Assembly (NCBI RefSeq): GCF_000765215.1
Contig: NZ_JPJE01000018.1
Coordinates: 62,001-126,000 of the forward strand
DNA from: Eubacterium sp. ER2
Lineage (GTDB): Bacteria > Bacillota > Clostridia > Lachnospirales > Lachnospiraceae
Reading direction: 5' to 3'
DNA: 64,000 nt
In this document: positions 16,699 through 30,308 of the stretch, piece after piece
Position numbering within the stretch: position 1 is the first letter of the stretch
Layout: the number at the start of each line of letters is the position of its first letter
Notes under the pieces: generated by a model
What the model was told of the DNA's origin: nothing
What the model saw: the letters and a program-made list of their open reading frames with translations, nothing else
The model's database searches: none
Position numbers and translations under genes: made by a program

Positions 16699-18003
16699 AT
16701 GCCTCAATGTGTAGTAATCGCAGACGACCTGACAGGGGCGAACGCCACGGGTGTACTTCTGAAGAAGATGAATTACACGGCCTACACGGTCATGAATACG
16801 GAGCGGATTGAGCTCAGTACCCTGAAGGATTGTGACTGTGTTCTCTATCCCACGGACAGCCGTGGGGTTGACCCGGAAATCGCCTACAACCGTGTGCACA
16901 ATGTCTGCACTCTGCTGAAAAACGATGATGTCAAGGTCTACTCCAAGAGGATTGACAGCACCCTGCGGGGAAATCTGGGAAGCGAGACAGATGCCATGCT
17001 GGACTGCCTGGGTGAGGATTACGTGGCGGTTGTGGCTCCCTGCTTTCCCTCATCGGGGCGTATTGTGATCGGAGGCTATATGCTTGTGAACGGACTGCCG
17101 CTGCATAAAACGGACATCGCCATCGACCCGAAGACGCCGGTCACTATATCGGAGGACGCGGTGCTCTTTGAACAGCAGAGCAAGTACAAGGTGGCTTCCA
17201 TCCTGATGAAGGATCTGATGCACGGTAAGCATTATCTGGCAGACCTGATGAAAAAGCATGTGGCGGAAGGATGCAGGATCCTTACCGTTGACTGCGTGAC
17301 CCAGGAAGATCTGGATCTCATCGCGGACGCGGTGATCACAAGCAAAATGAAGGTAGTGGCCGTTGACCCGGGCGTCTTCACAGCTACTCTTGCCAGAAAG
17401 CTGATCACCCCCTCTGAGAAGAAGGAAAAGAGCCGTATCCTTGCGGTGGTTGGAAGCGTGCATCCAAACACGAGAAACCAGATGGAGGAGCTGTGGCTCT
17501 CCCAGAGGACCCACAATGTGTTTGTGAACACAAAGGAGCTTCTCGAGGACGATGAGAGGCGGGAGAAGGAGATCAGCCGGGTGACGGAGGAAATCCTTAG
17601 GGAATGTAAGCTGAATGTGGTTTCTACAGTGACCGGCGACGGCATCTATCCGGAAAACCGCATTGATTTTAAGCCCTACATGGAGAAGTACAACTGCTCC
17701 ATGGACGAGGTGACCGGCCGCATCAATTCCGGCTTCGCGGAGATCACTTACCGGATCTTTAAGGCAGAGCCTGAGTTCAGAGGACTGTACACAAGCGGAG
17801 GGGACATCACAGTGGCTGTGTGCGCGCGGTTTGACACGGCGGGCTTAAGCCTGATGGACGAGGTGCTTCCTCTTGCCGCCTACGGACAGTTCTTAAAGGG
17901 CGAGTTCGAGGGAGTTCATATTATCACAAAGGGCGGCAGCCAGGGACAGAACGATGCTATCAACAGATGCATCACGTACCTGAAAGAGAAGCTGTATATC
18001 TAA
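16699..18003 (+). CDS. dtnK: D-threonate kinase-like four-carbon acid sugar kinase (DUF1537)
   Basis: 434 residues. N-terminal domain opens with VVIADDLTGANATG, followed by YSKRIDSTLRGNLGSE, both diagnostic of the family; the C-terminal domain has LYTSGGDITVAVC and ITKGGSQGQ nucleotide-binding turns. In characterised bacteria DtnK phosphorylates D-threonate at O4 and the product is oxidised by PdxA2. The pdxA2 gene follows 66 bp downstream, which supports this assignment over the other DUF1537 activities. Start ATG 16699 has a GAAGGAGG site. Confidence 0.85.
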   Translation: MPQCVVIADDLTGANATGVLLKKMNYTAYTVMNTERIELSTLKDCDCVLYPTDSRGVDPEIAYNRVHNVCTLLKNDDVKVYSKRIDSTLRGNLGSETDAMLDCLGEDYVAVVAPCFPSSGRIVIGGYMLVNGLPLHKTDIAIDPKTPVTISEDAVLFEQQSKYKVASILMKDLMHGKHYLADLMKKHVAEGCRILTVDCVTQEDLDLIADAVITSKMKVVAVDPGVFTATLARKLITPSEKKEKSRILAVVGSVHPNTRNQMEELWLSQRTHNVFVNTKELLEDDERREKEISRVTEEILRECKLNVVSTVTGDGIYPENRIDFKPYMEKYNCSMDEVTGRINSGFAEITYRIFKAEPEFRGLYTSGGDITVAVCARFDTAGLSLMDEVLPLAAYGQFLKGEFEGVHIITKGGSQGQNDAINRCITYLKEKLYI

Positions 18004-18069
18004 AAATACATAATACAAAACACACTATTATTCAGATACACAGTAGAAAGAAAAAGGGAGGATGAGATT

Positions 18070-19068
18070 ATGAGTAAACCACTTATTGCAGTGACCATGG
18101 GCGATCCGGCCGGCGTTGGGCCGGAGATCGTGGCGAAATCGCTGGCATCCGAGGCGGTCACAGAGGTGGCGGACTGCGTCATTGTGGGAGACAAAAAATG
18201 CATGGAGAACGCCATCCGCATCGTGGGCGCGGACCTGGAGATCCGCGTCATTCAGAAGCCCTCGGAGGGGCAGTATGAGAAGGGGATCATGAACCTGATC
18301 GACCTGGACAATGTGAATATGGATGTCTTCGAGTTCGGCAAGGTCAGCGGCATGTGTGGGAAGGCTGCCTATGACTACATTGCAAAGAGTATTGAGCTGG
18401 CGAACGCCGGGGAAGTGGACGCGGTATCCACCACACCTATCAACAAGGAGGCCCTGAAGGCGGGTGATATCCATTTTATCGGACACACGGAGATCTTTGG
18501 AGCCCTTACAGGTACAGAGGATCCTCTGACTATGTTCGAGACAAACGGCATGCGGGTATTCTTCCTGACAAGGCATGTGTCTCTTCGCCAGATGCTGGAC
18601 ATGATCAAGAAGGATCGAATCGTGGACTATGTAGTCAGATGCACGGAGGCCCTGAAACGTCTCGGGGTGAAGGAGGGAACCATGGCCATTGCGGGCCTGA
18701 ATCCTCACAGCGGGGAGCACGGTCTCTTCGGCTGGGAGGAGGTGGAGGAGATTATCCCCGCCATCGAGGAGCTGAAGAAGATGGGATACGATGTGGCAGG
18801 ACCCATCGGCGCTGACTCCGTATTCCACCAGGCGGCCATTGGAAAGTACAACAGTGTCCTCTCCCTGTATCACGACCAGGGACATATTGCCACAAAGACG
18901 CTGGATTTTGAGAAAACCATTGCGATTACAAATGGGATGCCTATCCTCAGGACATCTGTGGACCACGGCACTGCATTTGATATAGCGGGCACCGGAAAGG
19001 TGAGTGCTGTGAGCATGATCGAAGCCATTCGGCTGGCCGCGAAATACGCACCTCATTTTACAAAATAA
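18070..19068 (+). CDS. pdxA2: 4-phospho-D-threonate 3-dehydrogenase (PdxA2)
   Basis: 332 residues, PdxA family. Seen: [15 protein letters not shown] at the N-terminus, the substrate loop [20 protein letters not shown], metal-binding His residues in [12 protein letters not shown] and [14 protein letters not shown]. Classic PdxA oxidises 4-phosphohydroxythreonine for pyridoxal phosphate; PdxA2 paralogues oxidise 4-phospho-D-threonate (or erythronate), and the product decarboxylates to dihydroxyacetone phosphate. Placement between the DUF1537 kinase and GntP permease, and [11 protein letters not shown] in place of the usual YHDQGL form, favour PdxA2. Confidence 0.88.
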
Positions 19069-19098
19069 CAAGATGTATAATCTAAAGGAGGGATTTGT

Positions 19099-20502
19099 AT
19101 GATAGGAGGACTGGACGGCAACAGAATGTTGCTTGGTCTTGCTGTAGGTATTATTGTTCTTATTTTTCTTGTACTGAAGACAAAGGTTCAGGCGTTTCTG
19201 GCGCTGATCGTATGTACCGTTATCGTGGGCGTTGTAGGGGGGATGCCCCTGTCCAATATCACACTGGAGGACGGGACCACGCTGGGGATTGTCAATTCTA
19301 TCACGGGAGGCTTTGGAAGCACTCTTGGAAGTATCGGTATCATCATCGGTTTCGGCGTTATGATGGGACAGATCTTTGAGGTGACCGGTGCGGCCAAGCG
19401 GATGGCCTACACCTTCTTAAAGCTCTTTGGAAAGAAGAGAGAGGAGGAGGCCCTGTGCCTGACTGGTTTCCTTGTATCCATCCCTATTTTCTGCGACTCT
19501 GGATTTGTGGTTCTTTCACCGATCGCCAAGGCTATTTCCAGAGCAACAAAGAAATCTGTGATCGGTCTGGGAGCTGCTCTGGCCGCCGGACTTGTCATCA
19601 CCCACTCCCTTGTTCCGCCTACACCCGGACCTCTGGGTGTGTGCGGTATCTTCGGGATCGACGTAGGTACATTTATTCTGCTGACACTGGTTCTTGCCAT
19701 TCCAATGGCAATCGGCTGTGTGGTTTATGCAAAGAAGGTTCTGGCAAAGAAATTCTACCGCATCCCCAACGAGGACGGTGAAGTAGTCGAAATGCCCTAC
19801 CAGGAGCCGGATTATGAGAACGCTTTCCACATGGGAGACGAGAAGATGCCGGGAACATTTGAGTCCTTTGCTCCTCTGTTCCTGCCCATCATCCTCATTC
19901 TCATCAACACAGTAGCTACAGCTGTGGGACAGACAACAGGTATCATGGAAGTGCTGATCTTCCTTGGCCAGCCCATCATCGCGGTAGGCCTGGGACTGCT
20001 CCTGTCCATCTTCACCCTTGGAAGAGGGCTTGACAGACATACAGCTCTGACAGAGATGGAAAAGGGTATGGAGTCGGCCGGTATCATCATGCTTGTAACA
20101 GGTGGAGGCGGAGCTCTCGGCCAGATCATCAAGGACTCCGGACTTGGCACATACATGGCAGAGGGCCTTGCCCAGACAGCCATCCCGATCATCGTGCTTC
20201 CTCTGATCATCGCCACCCTGATGCGTTTCATCCAGGGCTCCGGAACAGTGGCCATGACAACAGCCGCGAGTATCTCCGCGCCCATCATCATCGCATCAGG
20301 CGTGAACCCCACTCTGGGCGCTATCGCATGCTGCGTGGGCTCTCTGTTCTTCAGCTACTTCAACGACAGCTATTTCTGGGTTGTAAACAGAACGCTGGGT
20401 GTGAAGGAGGCAAAGGACCAGCTGCAGGTGTGGTCAGTGACATCCACCATCGCGTGGGCCATTGGTATTGTTGAAGTTCTCATATTGAGTATTTTCATGT
20501 AA
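19099..20502 (+). CDS. GntP-family sugar acid:proton symporter
   Basis: 467-residue polytopic membrane protein with about 12 hydrophobic segments. GntP-family landmarks include GFGSTLGSIGIIIGFGVMMG, PIFCDSGFVVLSPI and HSLVPPTPGPLG in the N-terminal half and GSGTVAMTTAASI in the C-terminal half. Relatives import gluconate and other aldonates with protons. Within this cassette the most likely cargo is threonate or a similar four-carbon acid. A strong AAAGGAGGG site precedes ATG 19099, 30 bp after pdxA2. Confidence 0.92.
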   Translation: MIGGLDGNRMLLGLAVGIIVLIFLVLKTKVQAFLALIVCTVIVGVVGGMPLSNITLEDGTTLGIVNSITGGFGSTLGSIGIIIGFGVMMGQIFEVTGAAKRMAYTFLKLFGKKREEEALCLTGFLVSIPIFCDSGFVVLSPIAKAISRATKKSVIGLGAALAAGLVITHSLVPPTPGPLGVCGIFGIDVGTFILLTLVLAIPMAIGCVVYAKKVLAKKFYRIPNEDGEVVEMPYQEPDYENAFHMGDEKMPGTFESFAPLFLPIILILINTVATAVGQTTGIMEVLIFLGQPIIAVGLGLLLSIFTLGRGLDRHTALTEMEKGMESAGIIMLVTGGGGALGQIIKDSGLGTYMAEGLAQTAIPIIVLPLIIATLMRFIQGSGTVAMTTAASISAPIIIASGVNPTLGAIACCVGSLFFSYFNDSYFWVVNRTLGVKEAKDQLQVWSVTSTIAWAIGIVEVLILSIFM

Positions 20503-20534
20503 TCGTGTACAATAATCCGTAAGAGGTGATTTGT

Positions 20535-21281
20535 ATGCTGGCAGCAGAGAGGCAGGCAAGGATCGTGGAGCTGATCAGGGAGCAGGGAAGCGTCCAGGTG
20601 GATGATCTGGCGCATGATCTGCAGGTCAGCACTATGACAATAAGAAGAGATCTGGAAAAACTGCAGGAGGACAATATACTTGAGCGATGCCATGGAGGTG
20701 CGGTGGCAAAGCAGGAGGTGACCTATGCAGACAAAAGTACCAGCCACAAGCATGAGAAGGTAAAGCTGGCAGCCAGGTGCGTGCCCCTTGTCTCGGCGGG
20801 GGATAACATCTATCTGGACGCCGGGACTACTACCTACGAGATTGCCAAGGCGATCCAGAACGTGCCGGACATCATGGTCATGACAAATGACCTGGAGATT
20901 GCCGGGCTTCTGAAAAACAGCCAGGCTGAGCTGCTGCTGTGCGGCGGAATGGTACAGAAAAGTACCGGAAGCATGCTTGGATATTATGCGACTCAGATGC
21001 TGGAGGATTTCCGGTTTGACATAGGCTTTTTCGGAGCCGCGTCCATCAACGAGGAGCTGGAGGTCTTCACTCCTACAGTGGATAAGGCTTTCCTGAAGAG
21101 GAAAGCTCTCCAGAGATGCCGGAAGGCGTATCTGGTAGTGGATGAATCCAAATTCGGAAAACAGGCCGTGACAAAAGTCAACCATCTGGCGGATTATACG
21201 GCTGTGATCACTACAGGCAGGCTGAGCGCAGAAGACCGGAAAAAAGCAGAAAAGTCGGATGTACGGCTGATATATGTGTAA
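20535..21281 (+). CDS. DeoR-family transcriptional regulator
   Basis: 248 residues from ATG 20535, which has AAGAGGTG upstream; the in-frame GTG at 20526 lies inside that site. Residues 1-58 form the DeoR helix-turn-helix (LAHDLQVSTMTIRRDLEKLQ, then HGGAVA); the rest is the sugar-phosphate-sensing domain with LDAGTTTYEIA, GFFGAASI and VDESKFGK. It ends the dtnK cassette, 32 bp after gntP and without a separate promoter, so it should be autoregulated and probably repress its own cassette until a phosphorylated intermediate appears (inference). Confidence 0.9.
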   Translation: MLAAERQARIVELIREQGSVQVDDLAHDLQVSTMTIRRDLEKLQEDNILERCHGGAVAKQEVTYADKSTSHKHEKVKLAARCVPLVSAGDNIYLDAGTTTYEIAKAIQNVPDIMVMTNDLEIAGLLKNSQAELLLCGGMVQKSTGSMLGYYATQMLEDFRFDIGFFGAASINEELEVFTPTVDKAFLKRKALQRCRKAYLVVDESKFGKQAVTKVNHLADYTAVITTGRLSAEDRKKAEKSDVRLIYV

Positions 21282-21287
21282 AGAGTG

Positions 21288-21332
21288 AACCGCTGTGCGG
21301 CAGAGACAGATCTGCCCTCACAGCGGTTTTTT
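21288..21332. terminator. Terminator of the sugar-acid locus, overlapping the end of merR
   Basis: Perfect 10-bp outer stem (21288-21297 with 21319-21328) with an inner GGCAGA/TCTGCC stem, then six T. The right arm overlaps the last codons of the convergent merR gene. Confidence 0.9.
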
Positions 21333-22199
21333 ACTGCCTTTCTTGCCGCAGAATAGAGAAATTCTTGTGAGATAGTGTTCCTCATCTGCCGAGAGCTCAT
21401 CCAGCACGGCTTCCTTGTAGACAAAACTGCCAGGAGACAGGCCATTTTCCCCTGCAAAGGCAAGAAGCCGGCGGCAGGCTTCCTCGGAACGGTAGTAGTC
21501 GCCCCGCAGGTAGATGGCGGCATAGCTGCCGGCCGGCTTGATGTGTACCTGTGTGTCCGGCGGGAGTGCGTCCACGGAGAAAGAAGTCTTGGTGAAAAAA
21601 TATGCATAAGTCTCATAGTCTCCCTCCTGCAGAGCCGGGGTGGGGAGCATGGCGCCGTAGGGGTGGCCGCAGTTGAGATGTTCACGGCTGCACAGGCCGA
21701 TGTGGCTGCAGAGCACGGAGAAGATTTTGTCATGGTCAGATGTATACAGAGGACTGCTGAGTACCAGCAGTTCTTTTTTTGTCTGCTCTTCCAGGAGAAC
21801 AGGGGAGAGACATTGTACATCCTGAAAGTCTCTGGCCTGTCTGACAAGGGAGAGCTTTGTCTCAATGACGGTGCGGATGCGCCGGAGCTGAGCCAACTCT
21901 GCCTCCACCTTTTCCTGCTGTGTGAGCAGAAGTCTTTCTAAGCTGTCCGGGCTGCGGTTGTCTATGTAGTCCTTGATCTTCTTAAGAGGCATGCCCAGCT
22001 CTTTCAGGCAGGTGATGGTGAAAAAGACATCGCACTGGTTTTCGCTGTAATAGCGGTATCCTTTTTCATCTGTGAGAGCGGGAGAGAAAAGGCCGATCTC
22101 GTCGTAGTGAAAGAGGGTCCGCTTGTTGGTGCCGCACAGGGCGGCGAATTCACCGGTTTTTATGCATGGAATATCTAATTTTTGCATAATTATACACAT
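21318..22199 (-). CDS. MerR-family regulator with GyrI-like effector domain
   Basis: 293 residues (or 289 from the ATG at 22187). The winged helix occupies about residues 13-85 (TGEFAALCGTNKRTLFHYDEIGL, then GYRYY), a coiled-coil dimer helix follows (85-125), and residues 150-285 resemble BmrR/GyrI-type ligand domains. Such proteins twist a promoter with an over-long spacer into an active form when a small molecule binds. Exactly such a promoter drives the divergent aminotransferase operon, so that is its probable target. The AAGGAG site lies 1 base before the first ATG and 13 before the second, so the start is undecided. Confidence 0.88.
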   Translation of the reverse strand: MCIIMQKLDIPCIKTGEFAALCGTNKRTLFHYDEIGLFSPALTDEKGYRYYSENQCDVFFTITCLKELGMPLKKIKDYIDNRSPDSLERLLLTQQEKVEAELAQLRRIRTVIETKLSLVRQARDFQDVQCLSPVLLEEQTKKELLVLSSPLYTSDHDKIFSVLCSHIGLCSREHLNCGHPYGAMLPTPALQEGDYETYAYFFTKTSFSVDALPPDTQVHIKPAGSYAAIYLRGDYYRSEEACRRLLAFAGENGLSPGSFVYKEAVLDELSADEEHYLTRISLFCGKKGSKKPL

Positions 22200-22204
22200 T
22201 CTCC

Positions 22205-22235
22205 TTGACTATACCGTAACGTTATACTTTATTAT
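22205..22235 (+). promoter_or_regulatory. MerR-type promoter with 19-bp spacer and central dyad
   Basis: TTGACT at 22205-22210 and TATTAT at 22230-22235 are 19 bp apart. The dyad TAACGTTA (22217-22224) is centred in the spacer to within half a base. This is the known architecture of MerR-activated promoters; it faces the aminotransferase operon. Confidence 0.75.
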
Positions 22236-22259
22236 AAGCGGGATAGACAAGTCAGTCAA
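22231..22259 (-). promoter_or_regulatory. Promoter of the merR gene
   Basis: On the minus strand TTGACT (22259-22254) and a perfect TATAAT (22236-22231) are 17 bp apart. Its -10 overlaps the -10 of the opposing promoter, and the TAACGTTA dyad falls at the transcription start, so MerR should repress itself. Confidence 0.8.
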
Positions 22260-22287
22260 TTTAAAATAGATGAGGAGAAGATGCATT

Positions 22288-23463
22288 ATGCCAAAATTAA
22301 GCGAGAGAGTGGGCACATTTACCGATTCGGTGATCCGCAGGATGACCCGGATCAGCGATGAGTACGGAGCTATTAATTTATCCCAGGGATTTCCAGATTT
22401 CGATCCGCCAAAGGAGATCATGGACGCCCTGGCCAGGGCGGCCTATGCAGGCCCCCATCAGTATTCCATCACCTTCGGGGCGGAGAATTTCCGTCAGGCC
22501 CTGGCCAGAAAGCAGGGGAAGGCCATCGGCCGGACCATTGACCCGGAGACGGAGATCGTGGTGACCTGCGGGGGGACGGAGGCTATGATGTGCGCCATGA
22601 TGACCATCTGCAATCCGGGGGACAAGGTCATGGTGTTCTCGCCTTTCTATGAAAATTATGGGGCGGACGCTATTTTATCAGGGGCAGATCCCATCTACAT
22701 CCCTCTGGTGCCGCCGGAGTACACCTTCGACATTGCCCTCGTGGAGAAGGGCTTTCAGGAGGGGGCAAAGGCCATCATTGTCTGCAATCCCTCCAATCCC
22801 TGCGGGAAAGTGTTCTCCAGGGAAGAGCTGACGGCCATCGGCGAGCTGGCCGTAAAGTACGACGCCTTTGTGGTGACGGACGAGGTGTACGAGCACATGG
22901 TATATGAGCCATACCGCCACACCTGCATGGCCTCCCTGCCGGGCATGTACGATCACACCATCACCTGCAACTCCCTGTCCAAGACCTACTCCATCACCGG
23001 ATGGCGCCTGGGCTATCTCATCGGGCCTGCGGAGGTGGTGGAGGCGGCCAAGAAGGTTCACGACTTCCTTACCGTGGGAGCGGCGGCTCCCCTCCAGGAG
23101 GCAGCTGTGGTGGGGCTGAACTTCCCGGATTCCTACTATGAGGAGCTGAAAGAGCTCTACACCCAGAAGAGGGATTATTTCCTGGCCGGGCTGGACAGGA
23201 TCGGCCTGTCCCACAATGTCCCCCAGGGAACCTATTTTGTCCTGATCGACATACAGAAATTCCTGGACCTGCCCAAATTTGCGGGCTATACGGATCTGGA
23301 GTTCTGCGAGTGGATGATAAAACATATCGGTGTGGCGGCTGTGCCTGGCTCCAGCTTCTTCAAGGAGGAAGTGAACCATCTGATCCGGCTGCATTTTGCC
23401 AGGGAAAAAGAAACCATAGACGAAGCCATTAACCGTCTCAGTAAATTACAGGAGTTGTTATGA
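22288..23463 (+). CDS. PLP-dependent aminotransferase, class I/II
   Basis: 391 residues from ATG 22288 (site GAGGAG); the 6 extra codons upstream lack a ribosome site. Fold-type I aminotransferase: INLSQGFPDFDPP near residue 35, VCNPSNPCGKVFS, and the PLP lysine about 232 in NSLSKTYSITGWRLGY. The QGFPDF motif is seen in the aspartate/methionine/kynurenine aminotransferase branch. First gene of a MerR-controlled operon with an alcohol dehydrogenase (4-bp overlap) and a membrane protein. Substrate unknown. Confidence 0.88.
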   Translation: MPKLSERVGTFTDSVIRRMTRISDEYGAINLSQGFPDFDPPKEIMDALARAAYAGPHQYSITFGAENFRQALARKQGKAIGRTIDPETEIVVTCGGTEAMMCAMMTICNPGDKVMVFSPFYENYGADAILSGADPIYIPLVPPEYTFDIALVEKGFQEGAKAIIVCNPSNPCGKVFSREELTAIGELAVKYDAFVVTDEVYEHMVYEPYRHTCMASLPGMYDHTITCNSLSKTYSITGWRLGYLIGPAEVVEAAKKVHDFLTVGAAAPLQEAAVVGLNFPDSYYEELKELYTQKRDYFLAGLDRIGLSHNVPQGTYFVLIDIQKFLDLPKFAGYTDLEFCEWMIKHIGVAAVPGSSFFKEEVNHLIRLHFAREKETIDEAINRLSKLQELL

Positions 23464-24542
23464 TGAAAGCTTATTCAGTATTTTTTGCAAATTATACGAT
23501 CGGTGAGGACGCCTACGGACAGGTGCCCCAGGTGTGTCTCCCTTTTGGAAAGAGGATTTTCCTGATCGGCGGCAGGAGGGCCATGGACGCCGCGGAAGGG
23601 CTTCTCGGCAAGGCCCTGGAGGGGAGCGGACTTGTCGTTCTGGAGTCTGTGGAGTTCGGGGCGGACTGTACCTACCGGACCATTGACCGCTGGGCACAGC
23701 GGGCGAAGGAGCTGGGGGCTGATATGATCTTTGGCATGGGCGGAGGAAAGGCGCTGGACACGGCCAAGGGCGCCGCAGAGAGGGCGGGCCTTCCTGTCTT
23801 CACCTTCCCGACGATTGCAGCCACCTGTGCGGCCACCACAGCCCTGTCCGTTGTGTACCGGGAGGACGGAAATTTTGACAGCTTTTACTTTTACGACAAG
23901 CCTGCAAGACATTGCTTTATCAATACCCGGGTGATCGCGGATGCCCCTTGCGAGTATCTGCGGGCTGGCATGGGCGACACCATGGGAAAATTCTTTGAAT
24001 GTCACTTTGCGGCAAGGGGCGACCATCTGGATCACAGCTCCGCTCTGGGCCGGGAGATCAGCAACCTGTGCTACGGCCCCCTTCTGGAGCATGGCGTGCA
24101 GGCTTTGGTGGACTGCAGGCGGCATGAGCCCTCCTTTGCCCTGCAGCAGGCGGTTCTGGCCAATATTGTCAGCACAGGGATGGTGTCCCTGATGGTGCTG
24201 GACGACTACAACTGCGCCATCGCCCACTCCGTATACTACGGACTCGTGCTCCTTCCAGGCTTTGAGGAGAAGTACCTCCACGGCGATGTAGTGGCCTACG
24301 GTGTCCTTGTGCAGCTTGCGGTGGACAAGGACTGGGATAGAATGAGAGAGGTGAAAGGCTTTATGAAAGAGCTGGGGATCCCCTCCACCCTGCGGGAGAT
24401 GGAGGTGCCCCTGGACAGAGAGTATCTGCGGGATGTCCTCAGGGAGACAGTGACCGGCCCGGACATGGAGCACATTCCCTACCCGGTGACGGAGGATATG
24501 ATTTTTGAGGCTATGAGAGAAGTGGAGGAGCTGGAAGGATAA
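23460..24542 (+). CDS. Iron-containing alcohol dehydrogenase (GldA-like)
   Basis: 360 residues, glycerol dehydrogenase-like branch. Seen: the nucleotide-binding GMGGGKALDTAK (about 90-102), TIAATCAATTALSVVY, a metal-site segment AGMGDTMGKFFE, and His residues in AHSVYYGL and HGDVVAYG. Relatives oxidise glycerol, hydroxyacids or reduce aldehydes with NAD(P)H. The start ATGATG overlaps the aminotransferase stop, indicating coupled translation. A pathway in which the aminotransferase makes a 2-oxo acid that this enzyme reduces is possible but unproven. Confidence 0.88.
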   Translation: MMKAYSVFFANYTIGEDAYGQVPQVCLPFGKRIFLIGGRRAMDAAEGLLGKALEGSGLVVLESVEFGADCTYRTIDRWAQRAKELGADMIFGMGGGKALDTAKGAAERAGLPVFTFPTIAATCAATTALSVVYREDGNFDSFYFYDKPARHCFINTRVIADAPCEYLRAGMGDTMGKFFECHFAARGDHLDHSSALGREISNLCYGPLLEHGVQALVDCRRHEPSFALQQAVLANIVSTGMVSLMVLDDYNCAIAHSVYYGLVLLPGFEEKYLHGDVVAYGVLVQLAVDKDWDRMREVKGFMKELGIPSTLREMEVPLDREYLRDVLRETVTGPDMEHIPYPVTEDMIFEAMREVEELEG

Positions 24543-25912
24543 TGGAGAACGCGGTAGAAAAAACAGTGGAAAGTACCTATATTAATAAGAAAAACCTGTT
24601 AAAATTTATTTTTGGGTCAGCCTTCGGCGTGCTCATGTTCCTGGTGCCCATCCCCTACGAGACCTCCTTTACCACCCTCCTGGACTTTGTGAAAATGTGG
24701 CTTCAGGCCCTCTTTGGGGGAAGTCTCATCTATATCGTGGTGACTCTCCTCGTGGTGTCGGCGGTGCTCAGTACCTATGACTTTTTCGCAAAGCCGGATT
24801 TTATCCGGAAGAACCGGTATCTGAGCAAAGCCTTCTGTACCACGCCCCTCTATCTGGTGTCCAAGATCATCGGGGCTGTGGCTGGAGTTATGGTGCTGAC
24901 GGGAATGGGGCCGGAAATCGTGGTCTCAGCAGACACGGGCGGAACCATCATAGACCTCTGCGGGACCTTGTTCTGCATCCTGATCGCCTTCAGCTTTGTG
25001 CTCCCCTTCCTCACAGACTGCGGGATCATGGAGTTCCTCGGGGTGATCGCCCGGCCTGTGGTGCGCCCCCTGTTCCATGTGCCGGGGCGGGCGTCCGTGG
25101 ACCTGATCGCCTCCTGGTTCGGGGCAGCCAATGCGGCTGTCATCCTGACGAGGGAGCAGTACATGAAGGGATTTTACACAAAAAGAGAAGCCGGCTATAT
25201 CATGACCAACTTCTCCCTTGTGTCCGTTCCCTTCTGCCTTATGGTGGCAAATACCATCGGGCTGGATTCCATTTTTCCCGTCTTTTATCTGTGTATCTGC
25301 CTCATCGGCATCATCCTGGCAGTGATCATCGTGCGCATCCCGCCTATCCGCACCATACCGGACACCTATCGGGAGGTGACGGGACGGCAGGTGGCCGAGG
25401 ATCGGCCGGAGGAGAAGGGAATATGGAGATTTGCCCTGGAGTCAAGCTGCAAGAGAGCGGGAGAATTCCATCTGGACACTGTGCTGACAAGCGGGCTGGA
25501 GGTTATGATGGGAACGCTGTTCGATCTGATCCCTATTGTGGCCTCCTGGGGTGTCATCGCCCTGGCTATCGCCACCTACACGCCCTTCTTTGACTGGATT
25601 TCCTATCCTATGGGCCTGTATCTGCAGCTCTTTGGAGTGGAGGATGCCTTTGCTGTGGCGCCGGCAACGCTGGTGGGCTTCACGGATATGTTTATTCCGG
25701 CTCTGCTCATTGCGGGAACCGAGGTGGCGGTAAAGACAAAATTTATCATCGGCGTCCTGTCCCTTGTGCAGATCATTTACCTGACCGAGGTGGGAACCGT
25801 GGTCATCAAGAGCGAGGTGCCCCTGGGCTTCTGGAAGCTTTTTGCCATCTTCCTCGAGAGGACGCTGATCGCCATACCGTTTATCGTGCTGTTTGCGAAT
25901 CTTATATACTGA
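24542..25912 (+). CDS. YjiH-family membrane protein (nucleoside-recognition Gate domains)
   Basis: 456 residues with about 10-11 hydrophobic segments after a short charged N-terminus. The sequence matches the YjiH type, with two Gate segments (ITDCGIMEFLGVIARPVVRP; VGFTDMFIPALLIAG). Gate proteins include nucleoside transporters and spore maturation proteins; YjiH itself is uncharacterised. It overlaps the dehydrogenase stop by 1 bp (TAATG), so it belongs to the MerR-controlled operon and is the likely importer or exporter of that pathway's substrate. Confidence 0.82.
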   Translation: MENAVEKTVESTYINKKNLLKFIFGSAFGVLMFLVPIPYETSFTTLLDFVKMWLQALFGGSLIYIVVTLLVVSAVLSTYDFFAKPDFIRKNRYLSKAFCTTPLYLVSKIIGAVAGVMVLTGMGPEIVVSADTGGTIIDLCGTLFCILIAFSFVLPFLTDCGIMEFLGVIARPVVRPLFHVPGRASVDLIASWFGAANAAVILTREQYMKGFYTKREAGYIMTNFSLVSVPFCLMVANTIGLDSIFPVFYLCICLIGIILAVIIVRIPPIRTIPDTYREVTGRQVAEDRPEEKGIWRFALESSCKRAGEFHLDTVLTSGLEVMMGTLFDLIPIVASWGVIALAIATYTPFFDWISYPMGLYLQLFGVEDAFAVAPATLVGFTDMFIPALLIAGTEVAVKTKFIIGVLSLVQIIYLTEVGTVVIKSEVPLGFWKLFAIFLERTLIAIPFIVLFANLIY

Positions 25913-25937
25913 AAAACCAGACGTGAGGAAAAGAAAG

Positions 25938-25963
25938 AGGGAAGCCGTGGGGCTTCCCTTTCC
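25938..25963. terminator. Bidirectional terminator between yjiH and the truA-like gene
   Basis: 8-bp stem (25939-25946 with 25951-25958) with GTGG loop, followed by TTTCC; A-rich bases precede it. It separates convergent genes. Confidence 0.7.
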
Positions 25964-25978
25964 TGATGTCTTCTTCTT

Positions 25979-26716
25979 TTACTCGTAGAGAACCTCCTGC
26001 AGGTACATTCCCTTGGGATCGCAGGGGGCGCTGGCGGCCTGCTCTCCGGCAAAGATGGCGGTGATGACCTCCGGCTTTCTCGTGCCAAGTCCGATGTCCA
26101 GGAGAGTGCCCACGATGGCCCGCTGCATGTTGTGCAGGAAATCGTCGGCGTGCATGGAAATCTGCATCTCCTCCCCGTCGTCGTAGATGTCGATCCGGTA
26201 CATCTCCCTCTCCGTGGACTTGTTGTGCTTTACGGTGGAGAAATTTTTAAAGTCGTGCCTCCCGAGGAGAAGCTGCGCGGCCTCCTTCATGGCGTCCATA
26301 TCCGGCCGGCGGAAGCAGTGGAAGGTGTACTTGAAATCAAACACGCTGGGCACATCGCTGATGGTAGCCCGGTAGATGAAGATCTTTGACTTTGCGTTCA
26401 GCTGGGCGTGGAAGCGCTCGGGCATGTCCTCCACGGATATGATGGCGATATCCATGGGCAGATACCGGTTCAGATAGTGCTGGATCTCATAGTCCTTCAT
26501 GTCCGTGTTCGTCTTGAAGCTGGCTGTCTGGCCGTAGGCGTGGACGCCTACCTCCGTGCGGGCTCCGCAGAAGAGCTCCACATCCTCACCTGTCATCTTC
26601 CGGATGACCTCCAGGATCTTGTTGGAGATGGTGTTTGTGGACTCGTTTTTTCCGAGACGGACCCAGCCCTGGTAGCGGCTGCCGTCATATTCTATAGTAA
26701 GCTTGATATTGCGCAT
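25979..26716 (-). CDS. TruA-like tRNA pseudouridine synthase with Glu at the catalytic Asp position
   Basis: 245 residues from the ATG at 26716, which has AGGAGG 6 bases upstream (the site lies inside a longer in-frame reading from 26755). TruA fold: IKLTIEYDGSRYQGW at the N-terminus, FHAQLNAKSKIFIYR, HDFKNFS, and DDFLHNMQRAIVGTLLDIG near the C-terminus. TruA modifies U38-40 in tRNA anticodon stems through an invariant Asp in an RTDAGVHA motif. Here the motif is RTEVGVHA with Glu55, codon GAG. This suggests a paralogue with altered or lost activity. The gene stands alone, away from the ribosomal-protein cluster where truA is usually found. Confidence 0.88.
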   Translation of the reverse strand: MRNIKLTIEYDGSRYQGWVRLGKNESTNTISNKILEVIRKMTGEDVELFCGARTEVGVHAYGQTASFKTNTDMKDYEIQHYLNRYLPMDIAIISVEDMPERFHAQLNAKSKIFIYRATISDVPSVFDFKYTFHCFRRPDMDAMKEAAQLLLGRHDFKNFSTVKHNKSTEREMYRIDIYDDGEEMQISMHADDFLHNMQRAIVGTLLDIGLGTRKPEVITAIFAGEQAASAPCDPKGMYLQEVLYE

Positions 26717-28911: not shown

Positions 28912-30201
28912 TTACTTGTTTCTCTGCTTGAGCAAGTATGGCTTTAAAATGATCTGATCCTTTTCAATCGGATGGATGCCGAAAGCCAGCAGTTTTTCAT
29001 ACAGATCCTGATACATAAATTCTGTCAGTTCCAACGGACTTTTATTGCCAAGCAGCTCGCAAGGGGAGGAGTTTATGTGGCTGAGTACCAAATTCAGATT
29101 GGACTGGCCGGTCAGCCCGAGTTCCCTCAGATCCGTTCCTTTTGGAAGGATGTAACGGAGTTCTATATGTTTATTCTCCAGTGTTCCTTTTTGCCCAGAC
29201 TGCATAGGATCGCAGTAAAATACCCTTGTCCGTCTTGTGCTGTCGGAGGATGTCTCCATAGCTTCGGCGGCAGAAAACTCCGTTCCGCGATCGGTCAGCA
29301 GGACATGGACATATTTGCGGAACAGCTCCGCGCCAAGAATGGATTCCAGTATGTCAATGCCTTCTTTCATGGAAGTAGCGGTTTTCTCGTCACGGTATAA
29401 AGCGAGAAGGATACCGGCCCTCACAAATTTAAATGTCTGAAGGAAAGGCCCGCTTGTCTCGTCATTGTAGACCGTGTCCATTTGGGTGACAAAGACCTCG
29501 GGATGCTCGGAGAGATAGGATTGATACTCTTTGTAGGTCCTGCCTTCAAGATACTTTCTGTCGACGCGTTTTTTATAAGTTTTTGCCTTTTTCTTCAGCA
29601 GCCTGCGAGACACCTGCCGCCGCAGATCCAGGGCGGTGATGCCGGCAATTTCGTGGAAAACATCGTTTTCGATATAGTTGTAAAGCGTTTTTTCGGAAAT
29701 ACCGAGTTCCGGATGGTTGGTAACGATCTGATAGGGGGAGTGCCCCTGTTTCAGGAGCGGAGCAATAACAGCGGCCATCTGTTTTGCCTCCTGTACTGTA
29801 AGGTCAACACCTTCCCGGGAGTCGACCAGGGTGGTGCGGTAATCCATATGTGCCTCCTCCGGACGGTACTGGTATTTATCAAAACGGCAGCGGGACCAGT
29901 TGGAGCAGCCGTTGCAGGCGCCAGGGGAGCGGTCGCGTCTTGAGCAATGGAAAGGAAAGTAGTCTGGGCAGTCAGGGGTACACTGGCGGCCATAAACACA
30001 CTTTTTATAATGATTGCATTCCAAAGGCATCTTACACTTGTGGGTAAGAGTTCTGTGAAGTTTGATCTCTTTGCCAACAGTAGACTTATCCTTGCCGATG
30101 GTCTGGGCGATGGCGGTTTTTGTGGAGCCGTTCGTAATGCCGGCGAGAATGATCCGCCGTTCCTCTAAAGTTAAATGAGAAAAAGAGTTTTGAGTCTTCA
30201 T
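28912..30201 (-). CDS. IS30-family transposase
   Basis: About 429 residues (432 from the GTG at 30210). N-terminal helix-turn-helix region (LTLEERRIILAGITNGSTKTAIAQTIGKDKSTVGKEI, residues 10-50), then a Cys-rich zinc-finger-like stretch (KCKMPLECNHYKKCVYGRQC to CNGCSNWSRC, about 58-105), then the DDE catalytic domain with Asp in QMDTVYND, Asp in LLTDRGTEF and Glu in QKGTLENKH. Full length without frameshift, so potentially active. The ATG 30201 start lacks a strong ribosome site; the GTG 30210 has GGAAAGG close by. Confidence 0.93.
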   Translation of the reverse strand: MKTQNSFSHLTLEERRIILAGITNGSTKTAIAQTIGKDKSTVGKEIKLHRTLTHKCKMPLECNHYKKCVYGRQCTPDCPDYFPFHCSRRDRSPGACNGCSNWSRCRFDKYQYRPEEAHMDYRTTLVDSREGVDLTVQEAKQMAAVIAPLLKQGHSPYQIVTNHPELGISEKTLYNYIENDVFHEIAGITALDLRRQVSRRLLKKKAKTYKKRVDRKYLEGRTYKEYQSYLSEHPEVFVTQMDTVYNDETSGPFLQTFKFVRAGILLALYRDEKTATSMKEGIDILESILGAELFRKYVHVLLTDRGTEFSAAEAMETSSDSTRRTRVFYCDPMQSGQKGTLENKHIELRYILPKGTDLRELGLTGQSNLNLVLSHINSSPCELLGNKSPLELTEFMYQDLYEKLLAFGIHPIEKDQIILKPYLLKQRNK

Positions 30202-30308
30202 AATAGACACCAGCCTTTCCGGCGACTGCCTAACATGAAAAGTGTAAGACTAAATGCCATGTTTGGGGAAGTGGAAATGAGTGAAAGACTAAAATCCACT
30301 TTACCTCC

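Follow-up and report, generated by a model that had tools for sequence, protein, structure and literature searches.

Overlapping divergent promoters of the MerR type, at positions 22205-22259 of the window (the whole 64,000-nucleotide stretch of DNA that was analysed), are confirmed by sequence comparison as real and conserved features, and the three-gene operon served by the forward promoter likely answers to a second regulator, ArgR. The operon encodes an aminotransferase (AT), an iron-type alcohol dehydrogenase (FeADH) and a YjiH/Gate membrane protein. It is tentatively proposed, with a likelihood somewhat short of even, to interconvert an amino acid of the arginine family with its 2-oxo and 2-hydroxy acids under the two regulators, in the direction of salvage.

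Organization of the Locus and Its Relatives

The genome from which the window was taken comprises 74 contigs and 3.27 Mb. The first gene of the operon (22288..23463, plus strand) is preceded by a Shine-Dalgarno sequence, GAGGAGAA, at 22272-22279 and encodes a class I PLP aminotransferase of the YbdL/MtnE-KAT type (Pfam PF00155, 4e-67). Its stop codon overlaps the start of the gene for FeADH, a GldA/HcxA-like iron-type alcohol dehydrogenase (23460..24542, plus strand; Pfam PF00465), the conserved start of which is probably the second ATG, at 23463; the FeADH stop and the start of the gene for YjiH (24542..25912, plus strand; Pfam Gate) overlap in turn at 24542. Divergent to these, on the minus strand, merR (21318..22187) encodes a BmrR-like regulator with an N-terminal MerR winged helix and a C-terminal effector domain of the GyrI/BmrR type. 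The overlapping or nearly overlapping genes of the original prediction are borne out by these coordinates, and the gene order is kept in relatives; the overlaps and the shared three-gene order point to what is probably a single transcription unit.

Directly beside merR, at 16699-21281, lie genes for a four-carbon acid sugar kinase of the D-threonate kinase type, a PdxA2-like dehydrogenase, a GntP permease and a DeoR regulator, which probably form a separate unit for the use of D-threonate/tetronate. An open reading frame at 28912-30210 (minus strand) resembles, by eye, a transposase of the IS30 type.

Relatives were collected by querying named genomes with the dehydrogenase and keeping the best 80 of 555 relatives, among which the best-matching named loci, with 90% identity of the dehydrogenase, were those of Claveliimonas monacensis and Lachnoclostridium sp. 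An118, which marks the source as a gut bacterium of the Lachnospiraceae type. An AT (at least 77% identity) stands directly before a FeADH (at least 59%) in 25 of these best 80 loci. YjiH, whole or partial, comes next in 23 of the 25 (the contig ends earlier in L063 and L126) and a divergent merR is present in 14, giving, with the window, 15 merR loci and 11 merR-less ones; in the drafts L064 and L073, merR has a short or broken reading frame. Several loci are close relatives of one another (L057/L058, L069/L070, L072/L073, L079/L083 and L066-L068), and because of this kinship the counts and the combined p value given below overstate independence. Six more genome stretches, fetched as a later check, comprised two identical to loci already in the set (L195 to L076 and L196 to L065), three new loci with merR (L191-L193), and one merR-less locus (L194), the promoter of which is nearly identical to that of L070.

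The Divergent Promoters and the MerR-Type Dyad

As read from the sequence, the forward promoter (22205..22235) consists of TTGACT (22205-22210), a 19-bp spacer and TATTAT (22230-22235). The merR promoter faces it on the minus strand (22231..22259), with TTGACT at 22259-22254, a 17-bp spacer and TATAAT at 22236-22231, and the -10 elements of the two overlap. It matches the consensus at 11 of 12 positions and was the top of four promoter-like matches in 21200-26100, where 2.9 would be expected, in a scan restricted to spacers of 16-18 and so blind to the forward promoter. The predicted MerR operator is a 17-bp dyad, TATACCGTAACGTTATA (22210..22226; consensus TATACCGTWACGGTATA), centred at spacer position 8, and the predicted merR transcription start, at about 22224, falls inside it, as had been claimed. 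The dyad originally described was correctly placed in the spacer, but the sequence then given, TAACGTTA (22217-22224), is only an off-centre part of the 17-bp dyad. The start codon of merR also has to be moved from 22199 to 22187; among 13 aligned orthologues, the ATG at 22187 (MQK...) is the one conserved, and the in-frame ATG at 22199 is not.

The 17-bp pattern TATAMCGTAACGTTATA, with up to three mismatches, is unique to this site in 64 kb, where it occurs once per strand against an expected 0.01; the pattern was written from the site itself, and conservation is therefore a better test than this chance figure. TTGACT-19-TATTAT with the dyad, or a close variant of it (6 to 8 of 8 pairs), was found in all 15 merR loci, the window having seven of the eight pairs and six other loci all eight, and promoter and dyad were repeated in each of the three merR loci examined later (L191-L193). 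TATAAT on the opposite strand, read from bases common to the forward -10, is likewise present in 15 of 15, and a merR -35 with at least four of six matches at 15-19 bp in 13. With four mismatches allowed, the dyad was missing from all 11 merR-less loci having the same enzymes; ten of these have a TTGAC promoter with an ordinary 17-bp spacer, and no such promoter was detected in L065. Both the long-spacer forward promoter with its dyad and the opposing merR promoter of the original prediction thus stand, and the conservation of the dyad in orthologous loci, on which that prediction had been made to depend, extends to every merR locus. Dyad positions 2/16 and 5/13 carry compensating changes in L072 and L073, loci of the Faecalibacterium type, where both arms are altered together; L063 has the same two changes in a single arm only. 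The locus has two marks of a MerR-activated promoter: its dyad lies in a spacer within the expected 19-20 bp, and long spacer and dyad occur together with merR.

The Regulator and Its Predicted Effector

The N-terminal part of MerR matches Pfam MerR_1, and its C-terminal part has no Pfam match. A profile search of the PDB aligned it with BmrR (1e-21) over almost its full length, and BmrR was also the top structural match (Z 17.7, rmsd 4.6, 266 residues aligned) of a model with a pLDDT of 87.6, so that both the MerR DNA-binding domain and the GyrI-like effector domain of a BmrR-like protein are present. The buried, cation-binding Glu253 of the multidrug regulator, recognised through the E253A and E253Q mutants among the profile matches, is absent; in an alignment at about 20% identity its position is taken by Lys258, invariant in 13 of 13 sequences. 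A positive residue at this place suits a carboxylate ligand, and the inducer is likely to be an anion; a cationic amine or drug is disfavoured as inducer by the same substitution.

A Predicted ArgR Operator

The regulatory picture drawn earlier was incomplete, a second predicted operator having been missed: an ARG box, TTGCATAATTATACAC, at 22182..22197, which shares bases with the merR start codon and stops 7 nt short of the forward -35. The exact pattern TGNATWWWWATNCA has eight sites in the same genome (two for a reversed-pattern control), and because no other site lay recognisably at an arg gene, the motif was trained on sequences upstream of argC. This gene was found in 15 of 24 genomes (the source genome and those of 23 of the 25 AT loci, L065 and L068 not among them), several of which are draft MAGs. 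A site like ATGTATAATTATGCAA occurs within 600 nt upstream of argC in 14 of the 15, at more than 400 nt in L178 and L187, and no such site was found in the 600 nt of L188; that of the source genome, read by eye, has two mismatches to the search pattern. With a symmetrised matrix built from 11 distinct argC-upstream 16-mers (each genome contributing a single site, picked by eye), 22182-22197 ranks first in the window. Its score of 21.3 bits compares with 11.8 for the runner-up and 15.7-22.8 for the training set, and it so matches the argC operators of its clade. Its 14-letter core, TGTATAATTATGCA on the minus strand, is identical, letter for letter, to those of L178 and L185.

The box is also conserved in position. 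When the 400 nt ahead of AT are scored in each of the 15 merR loci, the top site always stops 6-9 nt short of the -35 (12.3-22.8 bits); the boxes of L072, L073 and L119 are weak (12.3-12.6 bits), their scores being reached in 1-2 of 100 shuffles. Across the 875,873 bases of the best 80 loci, 19 sites score 16 bits or more, and 12 of them fall in the 10,000 bases that precede the 25 AT genes; these 12 come from 11 loci, L079 having a second site at the AT start codon, and the one in L065 has no -35 behind it. A box that shares bases with the merR start codon is properly controlled for in loci that have no merR. With the offset fixed at 6-8 nt, ten of these loci gave AT-matched p values below 0.005 in five cases (L061, L069, L070, L071 and L078; 0.0004-0.002) and of 0.02 in L075; the box was missing at this offset from L066-L068 and L077. 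The Fisher combined p over the ten is 2e-9, with rows that are not independent and an offset that was picked after the loci had been viewed, the merR loci actually spanning 6-9. In all four of the later loci, including the merR-less L194 that nearly duplicates L070, the box stands 7-8 nt before the -35. Conservation of the box at the promoter is thus independent of merR (15 of 15 merR loci, three of them weak, and five to six of ten merR-less loci).

A single match to ArgR above the Pfam cut-off is found in the source genome (G000:C15:231050-231250), and from the box and its conservation ArgR is likely to be the second regulator of the operon, a pointer to the arginine family. Loci with the same operon present a natural experiment in promoter evolution: those with merR have a 19-bp spacer and dyad, those lacking it a 17-bp spacer and no dyad, and several of the latter retain the ARG box. 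Two loci are arranged differently, L080 as FeADH-YjiH-other AT and L105 with FeADH next to an ABC transporter, and in both the box overlaps the -10, read by eye, as at argC. L105 has two strong ARG boxes, at 1375 and 2720 (21.9 and 18.7 bits), before FeADH and before the amino-acid ABC transporter, and each of them lies over a -10.

The Aminotransferase and the Dehydrogenase

The AT is 33% identical to E. coli YbdL, and among characterised enzymes it is nearest to methionine, kynurenine and glutamine transaminases. It scores 326 bits against PRK09082, the NCBIfam model for the YbdL/MtnE methionine aminotransferase, the cut-off of which is 420, and both methionine-aminotransferase models among its best 25 remain below their cut-offs. 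Three arginines of the N-terminal helix, R17, R18 and R21, are invariant in 31 of 31 homologues (31 of 34 AT sequences, from both groups of loci described here, were compared) and are lacking in YbdL. A guanidinium-specific pocket was sought in the AT and could not be demonstrated, the three invariant arginines lying near the expected pocket; they speak against a pocket simply built for arginine, unless their role is with the amino donor.

FeADH is 33% identical to HcxA and has D173, H256 and H274, which we take to be the usual metal ligands of the family, invariant in all four aligned proteins. Its scores fall below the cut-offs of both nearby models (185 bits against 429 for PRK10586, HcxA, and 225.9 against 336 for PRK09423, GldA), and it is by sequence a probable 2-hydroxy-acid/2-oxo-acid dehydrogenase. 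Dehydrogenases of the HcxA type are broad.

YjiH and Its Relatives

A model of YjiH of moderate confidence (pLDDT 75.6) has the fold of the concentrative nucleoside transporters (CNT) over most of its length (Z 18.4, 306 residues, rmsd 3.6, 12% identity), with DASS and TRAP transporters as lower-ranked matches; YjiH is therefore modelled as a probable secondary transporter of the CNT fold. It occurs at 94-100% identity in 3 of the 11 genomes of the genus, and homologues with E values up to 1e-40 occur in 23 of 397 genomes of the family, eight of which (the source genome included) are at least 57% identical; the distribution is patchy.

YjiH relatives form a diverse set. A search of the class matched them in 41 of 391 genomes, and loci were taken from 30 of those matches. 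Six relatives (L150-L153, L197 and L198), in 48 loci examined, stand directly after a ureohydrolase gene. The four of these six ureohydrolases that were scanned all pass agmatinase models, and the one that was searched, from L151, is closest to guanidinobutyrase and 3-guanidinopropionase, suggesting that ureohydrolase and YjiH relative are likely a pair for the import and hydrolysis of a guanidino acid. The YjiH of the window is 30-33% identical to these ureohydrolase-linked relatives; the regions upstream of the L150-L153 genes hold no strong ARG box (5.4-8.1 bits). In L200 (17-2769) a YjiH relative follows a protein resembling, by eye, urocanate hydratase, an arrangement that would suit a transporter for some other deaminated cationic acid. 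The YjiH gene at L043/L080 1755-3109, in a draft MAG, is split by a frameshift that may be a sequencing error.

A Sister Group with an ABC Importer

In eight loci (L084, L085, L088, L089, L091, L094, L095 and L097), an AT (71-74% identity) and a FeADH (42-48%) are followed by the permease and ATPase of an amino-acid ABC transporter (Pfam assignments from L095 and L097), and no YjiH was found within the stretches examined. An ABC importer thus stands in YjiH's stead, and YjiH is accordingly argued to import the pathway's substrate. A family 3 binding protein is encoded divergently upstream in seven of the eight, the contig of L094 ending early. Its closest solved relatives are 4h5f, AbpA (4i62), 4ymx, TmArgBP (6svf/4prs) and AncQR; AbpA and TmArgBP are named as arginine-binding proteins in PMC4022495, where the ligand contacts of TmArgBP are also listed. 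From this list, the L095 protein keeps Asp37, Glu42, Phe76, Arg101 and Gln142, which are guanidinium, aromatic and carboxylate residues; Phe38 is replaced by Trp, and Ser131 could not be placed by numbering. Asp183, the holder of the alpha-amine, is Pro in all seven binding proteins of the group, and is Asp or Glu in the aligned arginine-type receptors 4h5f, 4i62, 4ymx and TmArgBP. The simple reading would be a ligand bearing a guanidinium and a carboxylate and having no free alpha-amine, for a protein that is the sister group's and not the window's. NCBIfam models do not separate its specificity, those for lysine/arginine/ornithine (106 bits) and cystine (101 bits) both being far under their cut-offs. 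In the binding protein of L105, Glu instead of Pro occupies the Asp183 position.

A 13-bp variant of the ARG model scored 18.2 bits in L088, 15.5 in L094 and 8-14 in others of the group, and gave nothing useful in L085. In the ABC loci, the interval between the divergent binding-protein gene and AT holds similar stretches that follow TGCATATGTCAAGTGAATATACTGCATAA with some variation, the greatest being in L085, L088 and L097; these stretches include a TTGAC -35 directed toward the binding-protein gene and an ARG-box-like half.

A Proposed Salvage Route and Its Alternatives

In the route proposed, a 2-hydroxy or 2-oxo acid with a guanidino group would enter through YjiH, the likeliest candidates being argininic acid (2-hydroxy-5-guanidinovalerate) and 2-ketoarginine. 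FeADH would convert the hydroxy acid to the keto acid, and the AT would convert the latter to arginine. The BmrR-like MerR, on the dyad in the over-long spacer, would keep the promoter shut until, with the anionic substrate bound, it twists the DNA and allows sigma-70 polymerase to open the promoter; it would also limit its own transcription. ArgR with arginine, on the box at the merR start codon just upstream of the -35, would switch the system off once its product is abundant. The transamination/reduction route with its own transporter that was suggested originally is plausible.

The main alternative is that the operon serves arginine breakdown or an electron sink: arginine (or ornithine) would be transaminated and the keto acid reduced with NADH to the 2-hydroxy acid, YjiH would import the amino acid or export the acid, and ArgR with arginine would activate from about -52, in the manner of AhrC at catabolic operons. 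Reduction of keto acids is common among anaerobes. Operators over the -10 are usually placed for repression, and regulators bound upstream of the -35 often activate. The box of the window, 6-9 nt upstream of the -35 in the merR loci and not overlapping the promoter as at argC in the cases read, would suit breakdown and counts against salvage, and the binding protein of the ABC group has arginine receptors as its nearest relatives; in B. subtilis and S. aureus, according to PMC12341379, the catabolism of arginine is activated by regulators of the ArgR type. The same binding proteins, however, lack the alpha-amine Asp in seven of seven cases, and with arginine as substrate a second, acid-sensing regulator would be superfluous. 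The boxes over the -10 in L080 and L105 also speak against breakdown, and suggest that ArgR represses. In the closest precedent, E. coli ybdH-mtnE, the two genes have common MetJ sites and are MetJ-repressed (PMC3228920); this is repression by the product amino acid, which is what salvage of a hydroxy or keto analogue would lead one to expect. By analogy, this precedent and the receptor without the alpha-amine Asp favour salvage of an arginine 2-hydroxy/2-oxo analogue over arginine breakdown, which we regard as unlikely, if still a serious contender. Also weighing against the salvage proposal are the merR-less loci that lack the box (L066-L068 and L077), the weak boxes of L072, L073 and L119, the lack of a recognisable arg gene at the other exact-pattern sites of the genome, the failure of the NCBIfam scores to discriminate the ligand of the binding protein, and the low identity of YjiH to its ureohydrolase-linked relatives. 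Arginine auxotrophy was considered as a guide to direction and did not discriminate, argC being found in 15 of the 24 genomes, several of them draft MAGs.

Somewhat less probable again is another amino acid pair (methionine, glutamine/glutamate or aromatic), with ArgR merely adding the operon to a wider nitrogen regulon. The identities of the AT's nearest characterised relatives and the breadth of HcxA-type dehydrogenases would accommodate this, as would R17, R18 and R21, which would be unexpected in a pocket for a guanidino side chain and count against salvage; the ARG box, the arginine-type binding protein and the guanidino-acid ureohydrolases beside YjiH relatives nevertheless suggest guanidino compounds, and the AT falls short of both methionine-aminotransferase models. 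Very improbable is an ordinary BmrR-like locus responsive to stress or drugs, at which the ARG-box-like palindrome would be an AT-rich UP element combined with coding sequence at the merR start codon. The likeness of the regulator to BmrR and the overlap of the box with the start codon, where AT-rich DNA is common, are consistent with such a locus, but five merR-less loci retain the box at the AT-matched p values given above, the operon holds no efflux gene, and Glu253 is replaced by Lys.

The proposed salvage route, in its fullest form, would be an undescribed bacterial conversion of argininic acid or 2-ketoarginine to arginine under a switch that reads 'substrate present AND product absent,' in which the pocket of the BmrR fold has been flipped from cation to anion and ArgR gates at the activator's own start codon, with a YjiH family that includes transporters of guanidino and other deaminated cationic acids; taken together, these particulars are doubtful. 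A table of uraemic solutes associated with gut bacteria (PMC8745165) includes argininic acid; that table was computed from KEGG enzymes and counted even the arginyl-tRNA ligase, and it therefore shows only that argininic acid is of interest. Should the proposal be right, it would provide a likely substrate class for a clade of ATs, a clade of FeADHs and a set of YjiH transporters left without one by family libraries, and would assign to certain Lachnospiraceae and Oscillospiraceae of the gut a definite part in turning over keto and hydroxy acids derived from arginine.

Relation to Known Systems

MerR promoters, ARG boxes and the AT-dehydrogenase pair are of known kinds. Their combination, the charge-flipped BmrR pocket suggested by sequence, and the putative guanidino-acid assignment were not met in the open-licence PMC literature found, mostly titles and the starts of abstracts. 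The claim that no pathway with this gene set has been described holds in so far as no description of the set, and no paper on argininic acid enzymes, was found in the open-licence PMC literature searched, but the enzyme pair does have a precedent in E. coli hcxA-ybdL/mtnE.

The regulator resembles BmrR, the multidrug MerR activator of B. subtilis, in fold and domain order throughout its length, and the BmrR gene's own promoter also has an over-long spacer with a central dyad; unlike BmrR, merR is here divergent to a metabolic operon, has Lys at the Glu253 position and probably responds to an anion. The box of the window resembles members of the ArgR/AhrC regulon in matching the argC operators of related genomes, and differs in being combined with a MerR promoter; full-text searches of open-licence PMC literature did not find AT, FeADH or YjiH described as ArgR targets. 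With the CNT family YjiH has in common the fold of its model and a Gate domain, whereas the identity is 12% and the neighbours of some YjiH relatives suggest guanidino acids rather than nucleosides. In the AruH/AruI arginine transaminase pathway of Pseudomonas, too, an aminotransferase interconverts arginine and 2-ketoarginine; it is accompanied there by a 2-ketoarginine decarboxylase, and here by a probable 2-hydroxy-acid dehydrogenase. The nearest parallel, E. coli hcxA-ybdL (ybdH-mtnE), places the same two enzyme families, at 33% identity each, side by side under the repressor of the product amino acid (PMC3228920); the E. coli genes, however, are adjacent and divergent, not co-transcribed, the 6 kb viewed around them contain no such transporter or merR, cstA and ybdD lying next to hcxA, and the amino acid is methionine rather than arginine.
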